DNA of 64,000 nucleotides, from positions 1 through 64,000 of the forward strand of contig NZ_PPSK01000007.1 of NCBI RefSeq assembly GCF_002903165.1, in the 5' to 3' direction. Within the stretch, counting starts at the first letter, position 1, and each line of letters begins with the position of its first letter. Below are positions 48,574 to 54,738 of the stretch, in pieces. The translations under genes and the position numbers were made by a program. The notes below the pieces were generated by a model, which saw only the letters and a list, made by a program, of their open reading frames with translations, was not told where the DNA came from and did no database searches. The DNA is from Halopseudomonas oceani (lineage in GTDB: Bacteria; Pseudomonadota; Gammaproteobacteria; Pseudomonadales; Pseudomonadaceae).

Positions 48574-49280
48574 CAGGCGTCGATCCCGCGCTGGCAGTAG
48601 ACCATGTAGTTGACGTCGACATCGGCTTCCAGCTTGTAGGTGCGGGTTAGCGGATTGAAGGTCAGGCCAGTGATGTCGTGCAGGTCCAGCTCGGCGTCGC
48701 GAATCCAGCGGCCGAGTTCCGCCGGGCGGATGAACTTGGCGAATTCGTGTGTGCCACGCGGCAGCATACGCAGAACGTATTCAGCACCGACGATCGCAAA
48801 CAGGAATGACTTGGGGTTGCGGTTGATGGTCGAGAAGAATACCTGGCCGCCGGGCTTGACTAGACGAGCGCAGGCGCGGATGACCGAACCCGGGTCAGGT
48901 ACGTGCTCAAGCATCTCCAGGCAGGTGACTACATCAAAGGTGCCAGCATGCTGCTCGGCGTACTCTTCGGCGGTGCTCTGGTCGTACTCAACGCTGACGC
49001 CAGACTCCAATTGATGCAGGCGGGCGACGGCCAGTGGCGCTTCGCCCATGTCGATACCGGTGACCTGGGCGCCGCGCTGGGCCATGGCTTCCGCCAGAAT
49101 GCCGCCGCCACAACCAACGTCCAGCACCTTCTTGCCCGCCAGACCGACGCGCTCGTCGATCCAGTTGGTGCGCAGCGGGTTGATTTCGTGCAGCGGTTTG
49201 AATTCGCTGTTGCGGTCCCACCAGCGGCTTGCCAGCGCTTCAAACTTGGCGATTTCGGCGCGGTCGACGTTAAGACTCAT
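48573..49280 (-). CDS. ubiG: Ubiquinone biosynthesis O-methyltransferase UbiG
   Basis: The start at ATG 49280 ([16 protein letters not shown]) has AAGGGG 7 nt upstream, giving 235 residues. The SAM-binding motif is [17 protein letters not shown], with GIDMGEAPL and [11 protein letters not shown] as motifs post-I and II. It catalyses both O-methylation steps of ubiquinone synthesis at the membrane surface. It overlaps mtaD by 11 nt upstream and mupP by one base downstream. Confidence 0.95.
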
Positions 49281-50610
49281 GGGTATCCCCTTTGGCAATG
49301 AGTTCAGCCAGGCTGCGGGCCTGCTGGAGAATGGATTGCGTATCTATTCCAATCAGTTGGCCGTCACGCAGTTTGCTGCGGCCAGCCACCCAGACATCGC
49401 TTACCTGGCTGGCGTTGCAGGTGTAGAGCAGCTGCGAAACGGGGTGGTAGAGCGGTTGCTGGGCCAGCCCAGACAGGTCAACGGCGGTAACGTCGGCCGC
49501 CTTGCCGACTTCGATAGAGCCAGTTTCCTCGTCGAGCCCCAGGGCCCGTGCCCCGGCGAGCGTGGCCATGTGTAATGCGCTATGGGCATCCAGCGCCGTT
49601 GGTGCGCCGCTGACGATTTTTGCCAGCATGGCCGCAGTACGCATTTCGCCGAGCATATCCAGGTCATTGTTGCTGGCAGCACCGTCGGTGCCCAGGGCGA
49701 CGTTGAGGCCGCTATCCAGCAGGCGCTGAACCGGCATCATGCCGCTGGCCAATTTCAGGTTTGATTCGGGGCAGTGGATCAGTTGTACGCCGTATTCGAC
49801 CAGCAGTGCGAGGTCTTCGTCGTTGATCTCGGTTGCATGCACGGCCTGCAGGCGAGGGCCAAGCAGGCCCAACTGCTGGAGTCGCTGCAGTGGACGCATG
49901 CCGGTCTGTGCAACGGCGTCGGCAACTTCACCGGCAGTCTCGTGAATATGCATCTGAATCGGCATATCCAGCTCGTCGGCGAGGGTACGAATACGGCCGA
50001 GCGTCTCGTCGCCCACGGTGTAGGGTGCGTGTGGACCAAAGGCGACGCTGATCAAGGCGTTGTGGCGCATCTCGTCACGCAGGCGCAGCCCCTTGGCGAC
50101 GGCCTCGGCCGCGTCACGTGCCCCTGGAATCGGGTTGTCGATCACAGGGAAGCAGAGCTGGGCGCGTATGCCGGCGTCGGCTGCTGCGGCAGCGGCGACA
50201 TCAGGGAAGAAATACATGTCGGAAAAGCAGGTCGTACCGCCGCGCAGCATCTCGGCAATCGCCAGCTCAGTACCCAGACGGACAAAATCGGCGTTGACCC
50301 AGCGGCCTTCTGCGGGCCATATATGGTCTGTCAGCCATGTCATCAGTGGCAGGTCGTCGGCCAGGCCGCGGAACAGCGTCATCGCTGCGTGGCCATGGGC
50401 GTTGATCAGGCCGGGAATGAGCACATGGTTTGGCAGGTCGCGCCGCTCGCGTGGGGTTAACGCGTTGGCGGAGGCCACCGGCACAATGCCGACGATGCGC
50501 CCCTGATGGACTGCCAGGGCATGATTTTCAAGTACCTGGCCGTGCGGGACAACGGGCACGATCCAGCGTGGCACGATCAGTAGATCGAGCTCACGGGGCA
50601 GCGTGGTCAT
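49270..50610 (-). CDS. mtaD: 5-methylthioadenosine/S-adenosylhomocysteine deaminase
   Basis: The start at ATG 50610 ([16 protein letters not shown]) has AAGGTGAA about 7 nt upstream; ATGs at 50628 and 50631 in the same frame are possible alternatives. The protein has 446 residues. The amidohydrolase metal ligands are intact: HGH in [14 protein letters not shown], His in HIHETAGE, and Asp in [21 protein letters not shown] gives the substrate loop. In P. aeruginosa this enzyme deaminates MTA to methylthioinosine, the first step of MTA salvage in that genus. It begins the minus-strand operon and is divergent from the mtnA-like gene (115-nt gap). Confidence 0.93.
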
Positions 50611-50725
50611 GTTCAGTTCACCTTGCATCATGGTCGGCAAGTATACCTGCTGGTGGTGCGCAAATGCAGCGTGAAAGTAGCTGTGGTTCGCAACGAATGA
50701 CAGTGCCGGAATAGGGGGTTCGCTC

Positions 50726-51781
50726 ATGTTGCATGTGGATACGATGGCGGCTGATCAGCCGCTGCAAGGGCTGGTATGGCTGGCGGAAGGCAAAGTCAGG
50801 CTGCTGGACCAACGGGTGCTGCCTGATCAGGTGGTGGCGATTGAGTGCGGCAATCCGGCACAGGTGCTGGCTGCCATGCGTGATGGCGTGGTCTGCGGAG
50901 CTGCAGCGTTGGGGATTGCGGCGGCCTATGCGCTGGCGCTGGCGGCCCGAAGGCCAGTGCCTCCCGTAAACTGGCTGACAGCCCTGCAGCCGTTGCTGGA
51001 CGAGCTGGCGGCGGTGCAGCCCATGGCGGCTAACCTGCACTGGGCGCTCGGCATCATGCGGCAAACCATTGCCAGCACCAGTCCAACTGATGACATGGCT
51101 GTGCGCCTGTTGCAGGCGGCTCAGGCTATTCAGGCAGCCGACCGGGAGGCCAACCAGACAATGGCCAAGCTGGGTGTTCAACTGCTGCGCCGGCACCAGG
51201 CGCCGGTGCACCGGGTCATGTTGCACGGCTACGGCGGTGATCTGTCCGGTGGCGGCGGCGGTACCACCTATGGGGTCGCCCGCACCGCCAGCGCGGCCGG
51301 GCTGGTCGGCGAGGTACTGGTCAACGAGGGGCGGTCGTTGCTGCCGAGCGCTTCGCTGGGGTTGTCCGAGTTGCTGCGCAGCGGCGCGCCAGCGGCGCTG
51401 CATGCCGATGTCGAGGCCGGGCGGCTGATGAAACACGACGGGGTTACCTGGGTGCTGGTCGGTGCCGAGCGCATTGCTGCCAACGGCGATGTTATCGGCC
51501 CGCTGGGCAGCTACATGCTGGCGATTCTGGCTATGCATCACGGGCTGCGTTTTATGGTCGTCGCGTCTACTGCAACCATCGATATGTCACTGGCGGATGC
51601 GGACGACCTTGGCCCGGATCAGCTTGGCAGCGGGTCATTGACCCGTGGTGGTGGCGAGTCGTCTCCGCTAGAGGTTACGCCGGTTGAGCTGATTGATGCG
51701 ATTGTCACCGAAAAGGGCATTATCGAGCAGCCTGACGAGCGAAAAGTAGCCAGCCTGATGAGCGTTCGCCAGCTCCACTGA
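50726..51781 (+). CDS. MtnA-like protein with lost active site (putative pseudoenzyme)
   Basis: The protein has 351 residues starting [15 protein letters not shown]. Overall it aligns with Pseudomonas methylthioribose-1-phosphate isomerase: [55 protein letters not shown], and the near-identical C-terminus [17 protein letters not shown]. Yet the catalytic positions differ. The phosphate-site RGAP is CGAA, the Cys motif (HCNTG/HCNAG) reads HGYGG, the ADR catalytic Asp is Glu, the DVANKIGTY motif reads DVIGPLGSY, and DETRP is NEGRS. A glycine run (SGGGGGT) replaces the ALAT loop. The frame is intact and codon usage matches its neighbours, so this is not a recent pseudogene. It sits at the normal mtnA locus between mtaD and gyrA. 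Isomerase activity is doubtful. Confidence 0.85.
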
Positions 51782-51820
51782 GGCTGTGTGGCGGGTGTGC
51801 TTCGTGCTCCCGCCAGCGCC

Positions 51821-51849
51821 TTGTCTGTGGTATCCTCTGTCGCTTTGAT
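51821..51849 (+). promoter_or_regulatory. Candidate sigma70 promoter of gyrA
   Basis: TTGTCT (51821-51826) and TTTGAT (51844-51849) are separated by 17 nt, each matching consensus at about four of six positions. It lies about 130 nt before the gyrA ATG. A preceding hairpin (51789-51815, 7-bp stem) may end the mtnA-like transcript. Confidence 0.4.
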
Positions 51850-51852
51850 CGG

Positions 51853-51885
51853 GCGGGACGCGTCCCGCTGCGGGCCTTGGCCCGC
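51853..51885 (+). other. Two adjacent GC-rich hairpins in the gyrA leader
   Basis: A perfect 16-bp palindrome (51853-51868, centre GACGCGTC) is followed after one base by a 7-bp stem with a TT centre (51870-51885). Neither has a U-run and both precede the gyrA ribosome binding site by about 80 nt. They may be operator sites, supercoiling-sensitive elements or mRNA structure. Confidence 0.6.
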
Positions 51886-51978
51886 GGTGAGGGTTGGTCG
51901 GCGTGTTCGTCCTCCTTGCGCATGTGACTAATGCTTTTGGCATCAATGGGTTGCCGACAATAAAAGGAATGCCGTTTC

Positions 51979-54738
51979 ATGGGTGAACTGGCCAAAGAAA
52001 TCCTTCCAGTCAATATCGAAGACGAACTGAAGCAGTCCTACCTGGATTACGCGATGAGCGTAATCGTCGGTCGTGCCCTGCCGGATGTGCGCGACGGTCT
52101 CAAGCCGGTACACCGTCGCGTCCTGTATGCGATGAGTGAGCTGGGTAATGACTGGAACAAGCCGTACCTGAAGTCGGCCCGTGTTGTTGGTGACGTAATC
52201 GGTAAGTACCACCCGCACGGCGACTCTGCCGTGTACGACACCATCGTGCGTATGGCGCAGGACTTCTCCATGCGTTATCCGCTGGTCGACGGTCAGGGCA
52301 ACTTCGGTTCCATTGACGGCGATAATGCTGCCGCAATGCGTTACACCGAAGTGCGGATGGCCAAGCTGACCCATGAACTGCTGGCTGATCTGGACAAAGA
52401 AACCGTCGACTGGGTACCTAACTACGACGGCAAGGAACAAATTCCTGACGTTCTGCCGACCAAGATTCCGCACCTGCTGGTCAACGGTTCCAGTGGTATC
52501 GCTGTCGGTATGGCGACCAACATTCCGCCGCACAACCTGACCGAAGTGATCAACGGCTGTCTGGCTGTGATCAGTAATCCCGACATCAGCATCGACGAGC
52601 TGATGGAATTCATTCCGGGCCCTGATTTTCCGACCGCCGGCATCATCAACGGTCGCGCTGGTATCGTTGAAGCCTACCGCACCGGCCGTGGCCGCATTTA
52701 CGTGCGGGCGCGCTGCCATATTGAAGATATCGACAAGGTTGGCGGTCGCCAGCAGATTGTCATCTCCGAATTGCCCTATCAGCTCAACAAGGCGCGTCTG
52801 ATCGAGAAGATCGCCGAGCTGGTAAAAGAGAAGAAGCTTGAGGGTATTACCGAGCTGCGCGATGAGTCCGACAAGGACGGTATCCGCGTGGTGATTGAGC
52901 TGCGTCGTGGCGAAGTGCCTGAGGTTATCCTTAACAACCTCTATGCCCAGACCCAGATGCAGAGTGTATTCGGCATCAACGTGGTCGGGCTGCTCGACGG
53001 CCAGCCGAAGATCCTGAACCTCAAGGAGCTGCTGGAAGCCTTCGTACGCCACCGCCGTGAGGTGGTTACCCGTCGCACCGTCTATGAGCTGCGCAAGGCC
53101 CGTGAGCGTGGTCACATCCTTGAAGGTCAGGCGGTTGCGCTGTCCAATATCGATCCGGTGATCGAGCTGATCAAGCAGTCGCCGACTCCGGCCGAGGCGA
53201 AGGAGCGCCTGCTCGCTGCTGCCTGGGCGCCGGGTACCGTGATCGAGATGGTTGAGCGTGCCGGTGCTGAATCCTGCCGTCCTGACGGGCTGGGTGAGGA
53301 GTTTGGGCTGCGCGATGGTCAGTACTACCTGTCCGCCGAGCAGGCGCAGGCGATTCTGGATATGCGTCTGCATCGCCTGACCGGCCTGGAGCATGAAAAA
53401 CTGCTCACCGAGTATCAGCAGATTCTTGAGCAGATCGGCGAGTTGCTGCGCATCCTCAATAGTCACGAGCGCCTGATGGAAGTGATCGTCGAGGAGCTGG
53501 AACAGGTCAAAGCCGCCTTCGGTGACGCCCGCCGTACCGAAATCGTCGCCTCGCGGATGGACCTGACCATCGCTGACCTGATTACCGAAGAGGAGCGTGT
53601 GGTCACCATCTCCCATGGTGGCTATGCCAAGAGTCAGCCGTTGACCGATTATCAGGCACAGCGCCGCGGTGGTCGTGGCAAGGCCGCAACCGGGGTTAAG
53701 GACGAGGATTACGTCGAACACCTGCTGGTTGCCAATAGTCATGCCACGCTGCTGCTGTTCTCCAGCCGCGGCAAGGTCTACTGGCTGAAGACCTACGAAA
53801 TCCCTGAAGCCTCGCGTACTGCGCGGGGGCGTCCGCTGGTCAATCTGTTGCCGCTGGAAGAGGGTGAGTGGATTACCGCGATGCTGCAAATCGATCTCGA
53901 AGCCCTGCAGCAGCAGAGTGCCGAAGAGGGCGATGAGCTGGACGACGACGCCGGCGTGATCGAAGGCGAAGCCGTCGAGGTTGAGGCTGAAGCTGACGCC
54001 GAGGCTGACGGTGATGATGACGAGAATGACGAGCCGACCGGCGCTTACATCTTTATGGCGACTGCTCGCGGCACGGTGAAAAAGACTCCGCTGGTGCAGT
54101 TCAGTCGTCCGCGCAGCAACGGTCTGATTGCGCTGCGCCTGGAGGAGGGTGACACCCTGATCGCCGCGGCCATTACCGATGGTTCGCGCGACATCATGCT
54201 GTTCTCCGACGGCGGCAAGGTCATTCGTTTCAAGGAACGCCATGTGCGCACCATGGGGCGCACTGCGCGCGGCGTACGCGGCATGCGTCTGCCGACTGGC
54301 CAGCGTCTGATCTCCATGCTGATTCCCGAGCCACAGGCGCAGATTCTGACCGCCTCCGAACGGGGGTACGGCAAACGCACCGTGCTGGAGGAATTCCCGC
54401 GTCGCGGCCGTGGTGGCCAGGGCGTGATCGCGATGGTGTCCAACGAGCGCAACGGTGCGCTGGTCGGTGCCGTACAGGTAGTGGACGGCGAGGAAATTAT
54501 GCTGATTTCTGACCAGGGCACGCTGGTGCGCACCCGGGTCAGCGAAGTGTCCAGCCTGTCGCGCAACACCCAGGGCGTAATGCTGATTCGCTTGGCGACA
54601 GAAGAGAAGCTGGTGGGGCTGGAGCGTGTGCAGGAGCCGTCGGAAGACGATATTGAGCTGGAAGAGGAAGCCGCCGCAGAAGGTGATGCCCAGCTTCCGG
54701 AAAGTGACGAGCAGCAACCCGTGGATGATCAGGAGTAA
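51979..54738 (+). CDS. gyrA: DNA gyrase subunit A
   Basis: The protein has 919 residues, starting [18 protein letters not shown] with AAGGA 10 nt upstream. It is the breakage-reunion subunit of gyrase, introducing negative supercoils with GyrB. Catalytic Tyr122 lies in [11 protein letters not shown]. The quinolone-resistance region has Ser83 and Asp87 (GDSAVYD), the sensitive-type residues. The GyrA box is QRRGGRGK near 570. The C-terminal beta-pinwheel holds a very acidic insert of about 45 residues (about 641-689, [11 protein letters not shown] onward) between blades, as in other pseudomonads, and the protein ends in an acidic tail. serC starts 2 nt after the stop. Confidence 0.97.

Follow-up and report, generated by a model that had tools for sequence, protein, structure and literature searches.

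The closest described relative of the protein described here is MtnA (TIGR00512, EC 5.3.1.23), the methylthioribose-1-phosphate (MTR-1-P) isomerase: the two are alike in fold, length, locus, scaffold residues and vertical descent, whereas our protein is without the catalytic Cys and Asp, is changed at 12 of 19 tracked active-site positions, falls below the family cut-off and is encoded in a genome without MtnB or MtnC over cut-off. Ribose-1,5-bisphosphate isomerase (R15Pi, TIGR00511) has a related fold and, as far as the accessible part of its literature goes, catalytic Cys/Asp chemistry; our protein reaches 56 bits of the 314 required for membership of that family. The accessible part of one study (PMC5789824) reports that R15Pi C135S is inactive and still binds substrate, and that the R15Pi Cys position is occupied by Ala or Gly in human and fission-yeast eIF2B-alpha. 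The alpha, beta and delta subunits of eIF2B are members of the MtnA/R15Pi superfamily that turned regulatory; they are, however, subunits of a eukaryotic GEF, to which our protein has no sequence membership, and eIF2B-alpha has kept sugar-phosphate binding in the old pocket (accessible part of PMC8187479), whereas the corresponding ligands are largely gone in our protein. Human MRI1/MRDI (PDB 4ldq, 4ldr) is an MtnA for which a second role has been reported (Rho-dependent invasion, according to the structure title) and thus a precedent for moonlighting of this fold. It differs in being a human protein that is also an isomerase, with its second role in a eukaryotic cell. As for bacteria, P. aeruginosa MtnA has been counted among virulence-associated proteins in a proteomics study, the accessible part of which explains this by salvage (PMC9748083), and the literature that we searched, which included few subscription papers, held no report of an MtnA pseudoenzyme or second function.

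An MtnA-like protein without the catalytic residues

The window (that is, the whole stretch of 64,000 nucleotides from Halopseudomonas oceani that was analysed) carries the gene order mtaD-mtnA-gyrA-serC, which the locus of the window protein has in common with the MtnA locus (Table 1). An earlier note, made from the sequence alone, had described an intact frame of 351 codons, which we confirm on the + strand; a search of the whole genome (4.16 Mb in 64 contigs, listed as 100% complete) found no second MtnA homologue at E <= 0.001, and a plasmid search gave nothing of use. The nearest named relative, Halopseudomonas aestusnigri VGXO14 (L031), has 79% protein identity. The open reading frame of the divergent mtaD could open at 50727, but its family match starts only at residue 44, and we therefore consider the ATG at 50610 probably the true start. 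The mtaD reading frame is open across the intergenic region, with a head-to-head overlap of 2 bases with the mtnA-like start.

Table 1. Features of the mtnA-like locus in the window (positions are those of the window).
Feature	Position	Strand	Basis or remark
MtnA-like protein, putative pseudoenzyme, 351 aa	50726..51781, stop codon included	+	ORF, HMM and predicted structure
mtaD-like deaminase, divergent neighbour	49270..50610	-	ORF and family match
gyrA, downstream neighbour, same direction as the mtnA-like frame	51979..54738	+	
CGAA in place of RGAP	50894..50905, residues 57-60	+	Arg57 in 89/89 genomes with MtnC
QPMAANL in place of RPTAVNL	51017..51037, residues 98-104	+	alignment
HGYGG in place of HCN(A/T)G, with Gly168 for the catalytic Cys	51224..51238, codon 51227-51229	+	
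11-residue segment in place of DETRPWLQG(S/A)R	51323..51355, residues 200-210	+	alignment
GAER in place of GADR, with Glu248 for the catalytic Asp	51461..51472, codon 51467-51469	+	
DVIGPLG in place of DVANKIG	51488..51508, residues 255-261	+	alignment
Retained segment, residues 261-280	51506..51565	+	best conserved 20-residue block of Cys-less copies
Retained C-terminus ending RQLH, residues 316-351	51671..51778	+	

Compared with the MtnA, eIF2B and R15Pi families, the window protein has the MtnA fold and lies below all of their curated cut-offs. The MtnA models match most of its length at 218 bits (TIGR00512, cut-off 279) and 264 bits (PRK05720, cut-off 271), against 445 and 495 bits for an intact copy of the same genus, and PRK08335, on the eIF2B/R15Pi side, gives 29 bits (cut-off 339); the Pfam model IF-2B (PF01008), with 119 bits over a cut-off of 22.4, places it in the MtnA/eIF2B fold. 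The predicted structure (a model from six sequences; pLDDT 82, pTM 0.84) has its best PDB match in the product complex of B. subtilis MtnA (2yvk, TM 0.83), followed by human MRDI, R15Pi and eIF2B subunits. Residues 170-179, which follow the former Cys, fall below a pLDDT of 50, a level that no stretch of an intact relative (L033) modelled with the same rows goes under.

A phmmer alignment to the solved MtnAs (T. maritima, P. horikoshii, B. subtilis) pairs Gly168 with the CNAG Cys and Glu248 with the GADR Asp; this Cys and this Asp we take to be Cys160 and Asp240 of B. subtilis on the assumption that 2yrf carries a 21-residue tag. All six motif changes listed in the earlier note are present letter for letter, and its statement that the whole active site had been lost proved slightly too strong: beside the 12 changed positions, seven are kept (N103, E201, R203, R249, N253, D255 and G261). 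The putative substrate or phosphate ligand positions now read C57, Q98, P207, G258 and P259; by homology, we take the ligands to be the Arg of RGA, the Arg of RPT, the Gln of LQG, and the Asn and Lys of NK. A sequencing error or assembly fault behind the substitutions can be excluded in practice, given the same kind of changes in independent genomes: a second species (G002), whose protein is 79% identical, has nearly the same motif changes, and four further species have both Cys to Gly and Asp to Glu.

Recurrent loss of the catalytic residues and the salvage pathway

We compared 158 copies, that is, those of 36 Halopseudomonas genomes with a homologue and 122 from other Pseudomonadaceae; the family sample comprised 148 genomes, 143 of them with a homologue (21 in the genus). 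One homologue, never with an internal stop, is present in 36 of the 37 genus genomes (the match in G004 is partial), and the absence from the remaining genome (G028) may be due to assembly, because gyrA begins there at base 88 of a contig. No homologue turned up in five of the 148 family genomes, so that the gene is not needed everywhere. Four loci from genomes of 2.6-3.3 Mb (L239, L241-L243) have no mtnA match and have other genes upstream of gyrA, presumably a gcvT/gcvH-like pair in L241-L243 and a purF-like frame in L239.

MtnC scores over cut-off in the genomes of 89 of the 158 copies, and MtnB and MtnC do so in the same 89 of the 148 family-sample genomes. All 89 copies from these genomes keep both the Cys and the Asp, and 18 of the 19 active-site positions never vary among them (the exception, N253, is changed in four). 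Of the 69 MtnC-less copies, 68 are full-length and one (L041) is partial and was excluded both from the Cys counts and from the Cys state on the trees. The Cys has been lost in 31 of the 68 (20 in the genus and 11 in three other genera), the Asp in 20 and both in 17. The loss of MtnB and MtnC alone does not end selection on catalysis, since the Cys persists in 37 of the 68 MtnC-less copies; all 19 positions are canonical in 31. Residue 251 is Thr in 88 of the 89 copies with MtnC and Ala in 30 of the 31 full-length Cys-less copies, as well as in 36 of 36 genus copies, intact ones included; Ala251 may mark relaxed catalysis early.

On a gyrA tree (1,245 columns and 156 of the 158 rows, two stretches being without gyrA), 10 changes of the Cys state are required, six or more of them on well supported branches. 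With losses only, this tree has 19 losses of MtnC and 10 of the Cys; every one of the latter falls on the MtnC-less branches, which make up 52% of the tree length (branch-length estimate, P = 0.0014, assuming midpoint rooting and no regain of Cys). An MtnA tree built with the motif columns removed requires six changes, at least four of them supported; because the long branches of dead copies may attract each other in this quick and weak tree, we take four independent losses as the safe minimum, with 10 as the best estimate. A Fisher test of Cys loss against MtnC absence (P = 4e-14) ignores relatedness and is not to be leaned on, and an independent-pairs test points in the expected direction with too few pairs (median P = 0.5). 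Spread of a single dead copy by gene transfer was considered and is not supported: in the MtnA tree all 35 genus rows group in a single clade, and six changes are required there for the Cys-less copies, weak as that tree is.

These counts bear on the possibility that the window protein still isomerizes MTR-1-P with an unusual active site. Its fold and overall length are retained, and E201, R203 and D255 are kept; against this, it has lost both catalytic residues and most of the tracked ligands, the Cys and Asp are kept in all 89 copies from genomes with MtnB and MtnC, and the single change of Cys to Ser is enough to inactivate the related R15Pi, according to the accessible part of PMC5789824. 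We regard continued isomerase activity as very unlikely.

Neither MtnB nor MtnC scores over its curated cut-off in any of the 37 genus genomes (weak MtnC matches below the cut-off occur in three), and for this reason salvage through MtnB and MtnC looks absent from the genus whether or not MtnA works. Weak matches to the MtnB model are found in all 37 genomes (at most 46 bits, cut-off 137) and are probably other class II aldolases; because of them, intact copies may conceivably serve some other use of the isomerase product. Matches to the ARD family (14 of 37 genomes, seven over cut-off) each cover about 50-65 of 157 positions, were provisionally taken to be other cupin proteins and were not used. 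An MTAP/MtiP match is present in 27 of the 37 genomes (26 over cut-off), and of the full-length Cys-less copies of the genus 13 lie in genomes with such a match and seven in genomes without. In P. aeruginosa, according to the accessible part of PMC6302742, MTA is deaminated to MTI before phosphorolysis. At five genus loci (L023, L028, L038-L040) mtaD is gone and ubiG adjoins the mtnA-like frame, which stays; MTAP is also missing from these genomes. The earlier note had left the fate of MTR-1-P open, a question that is sharpened by the absence of MtnB and MtnC beside a widespread MTAP/MtiP: MTR-1-P may be a dead end or exported in the genus.

A scan of 276 genomes of the class gave an MtnA match in 176, over cut-off in 170. 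Below cut-off were, beside the genome of the window, two with pieces at contig ends (G189, G322), one with a 20-bit match (G417), one with pieces on two contigs and one stop (G336), and one with two pieces and two stops (G164). Six more genomes with weak scores were inspected as well, all of them over cut-off; one copy is in two frames (G215), and the weak full-length copies that were aligned (L222, L223, L225, L227) keep Cys and Asp. The dead but kept state was thus not seen outside Pseudomonadaceae among the copies examined, which cover a minority of the 170. The 30 best loci of the scan all match the Cys pattern, and three (L194, L207, L220) have no match to the Asp pattern. Because gyrA lies within the fetched mtnA flank in at least 19 of these 30 loci from other families (L192-L221; some stretches are short), the linkage of mtnA and gyrA is older than Pseudomonadaceae.

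Purifying selection and retained regions

Across 17 pairs of degenerate copies, dN/dS (NG86) is 0.029-0.348 with a median of 0.071 (one pair includes the partial copy L041), compared with 0.031-0.148 in seven intact genus pairs and 0.039-0.227 in 24 pairs with MtnC (two of 26 were dropped from this range for saturated synonymous distance); pairs were chosen as close relatives, and several share members. A pair that keeps the Cys and has lost the Asp (L019/L021; 0.076) was counted in neither group. Constraint is weaker on the most degenerate pair, L039/L040, as its dN/dS of 0.35 indicates. With its catalytic residues lost and purifying selection in force, the window protein has the features of a putative pseudoenzyme under selection.

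A decaying gene that has not yet broken would account for the rapid divergence of the mtnA-like gene relative to its neighbours (79% identity to G002, against 91% for MtaD and 99.8% for the first 433 residues of GyrA). Such a gene is, however, at odds with a dN/dS that is far below 1 in every one of the 17 pairs, with a neutral simulation (substitutions only) in which drift from seven dead copies to the observed distances left 0-32 of 500 frames open, and with the occurrence of the state in at least four to six independent lineages without an internal stop in any genus copy. We therefore reject decay as most improbable, and the earlier note, which had preferred a pseudoenzyme or a new function over drift, is supported in this respect.

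What is kept is concentrated towards the C-terminus. All 31 Cys-less copies have 336-362 residues, and 36 of the 64 columns with at most one exception among them fall in residues 251-351. In 13 dead pairs, fourfold sites change at 0.22-0.49 along the whole gene and amino acids 261-280 change at 0.02. AMHHG is found in 148 of the 158 family copies, dead and intact, and the final LH in 150; copies from genera g18 and g6 account for the exceptions, and the LH ending is absent from all of the 30 best class-scan loci. The LH end is thus a mark of the family rather than of dead copies, and it counts as a candidate site for a second function, not as proof of one. The retained C-terminal half may also be conserved for folding or dimerization alone. 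Constraint at the DNA level, in the form of a hidden gyrA promoter, was considered and rejected, as fourfold sites vary throughout the gene and a promoter search (a weak test) gave no match.

A protein that is itself inert could be encoded by a frame kept open solely for gyrA, so that transcription passes through and Rho polarity is avoided. Within the genus the frame adjoins gyrA and reads the same way, gyrA is present in 156 of 158 fetched family stretches and 19 of 30 loci of other families, and no sigma-70-like promoter was found in 50500-52050 (a weak test, with 0.3 expected by chance). Yet such a role needs only the absence of stops, not a median dN/dS of 0.07 and specific invariant residues, and a shorter frame would serve gyrA equally well, whereas the 31 Cys-less copies keep their length; fourfold sites are variable all along, and the one terminator-like site between the two genes, at 51804, is at chance level (1.1 expected). 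We consider this explanation unlikely.

The pocket might instead have been remodelled and now act on another substrate. One copy (L110) differs only in the Cys and one Asn among the 19 positions, and the subclade of L009, L011 and L014 shares HSNDG and AADR with most ligands kept. In this subclade the Asp is kept, and HSNDG for HCNAG and AADR for GADR are constant in the three members; of all the copies, these three have the strongest claim to a remodelled rather than a dead site. For the dead copies at large, the former catalytic loop varies by lineage (HGYGG, LGYSG, HGNAG, HSNDG, LGNAG and others), with a deletion of the loop in L038 and a shortened form in L040; positions 57, 98, 207 and 259, presumably phosphate contacts by homology to R15Pi, are not conserved; and the motifs of the dead copies have no new residue in common except Ala251. 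Remodelling is accordingly an unlikely account, which, like that of a frame open for gyrA, fits the data worse than a pseudoenzyme does. Of the two roles raised by the earlier note, a non-catalytic (regulatory) one is favoured over action on another sugar phosphate, given that the former catalytic loop is not the same in all lineages and that two copies have it deleted or shortened.

A proposed second function older than the loss

It is very probable that the window protein is functional without being an isomerase. We consider it probable that it is an MtnA-fold pseudoenzyme that does not isomerize MTR-1-P and is kept for an older, non-catalytic second function; its lack of activity, oligomeric state and binding partner are what we infer, beyond the residues and the selection described above. 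Under this scenario, the MtnA of Pseudomonadaceae would have had a second, non-catalytic function beside catalysis. Once MtnB and MtnC were lost in a lineage, selection on the isomerase reaction could lapse and the active site decay, while the second function would preserve fold and frame alike and, most of all, the C-terminal half (residues 251-351) with its AMHHGxRFMVVA segment, VTEKG strand and LH end. This nearly invariant half probably carries the second function, the likeliest mode of which would be non-catalytic contact with another protein, as in eIF2B alpha, beta and delta of the same superfamily. The neighbouring gyrA may hint at a link to gyrase, the first candidate for a partner.

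Loss of the pathway around it would be expected to make an enzyme disappear or break down; here MtnA has lost its chemistry repeatedly with the protein still under selection. Somewhat more cautiously, we lean towards the general view that a hidden non-catalytic function of MtnA in Pseudomonadaceae outlasts catalysis and gives rise to pseudoenzymes repeatedly after the loss of salvage, by an eIF2B-like route. Such genes should not be annotated as isomerases. The dead copies constitute a natural set of separation-of-function variants, in which what stays conserved should serve the second function, and the question of what else MtnA does becomes directly testable in laboratory pseudomonads (we take PA3169 to be the mtnA of P. 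aeruginosa). If this view holds, the family would offer a bacterial parallel to the origin of the regulatory subunits of eIF2B.
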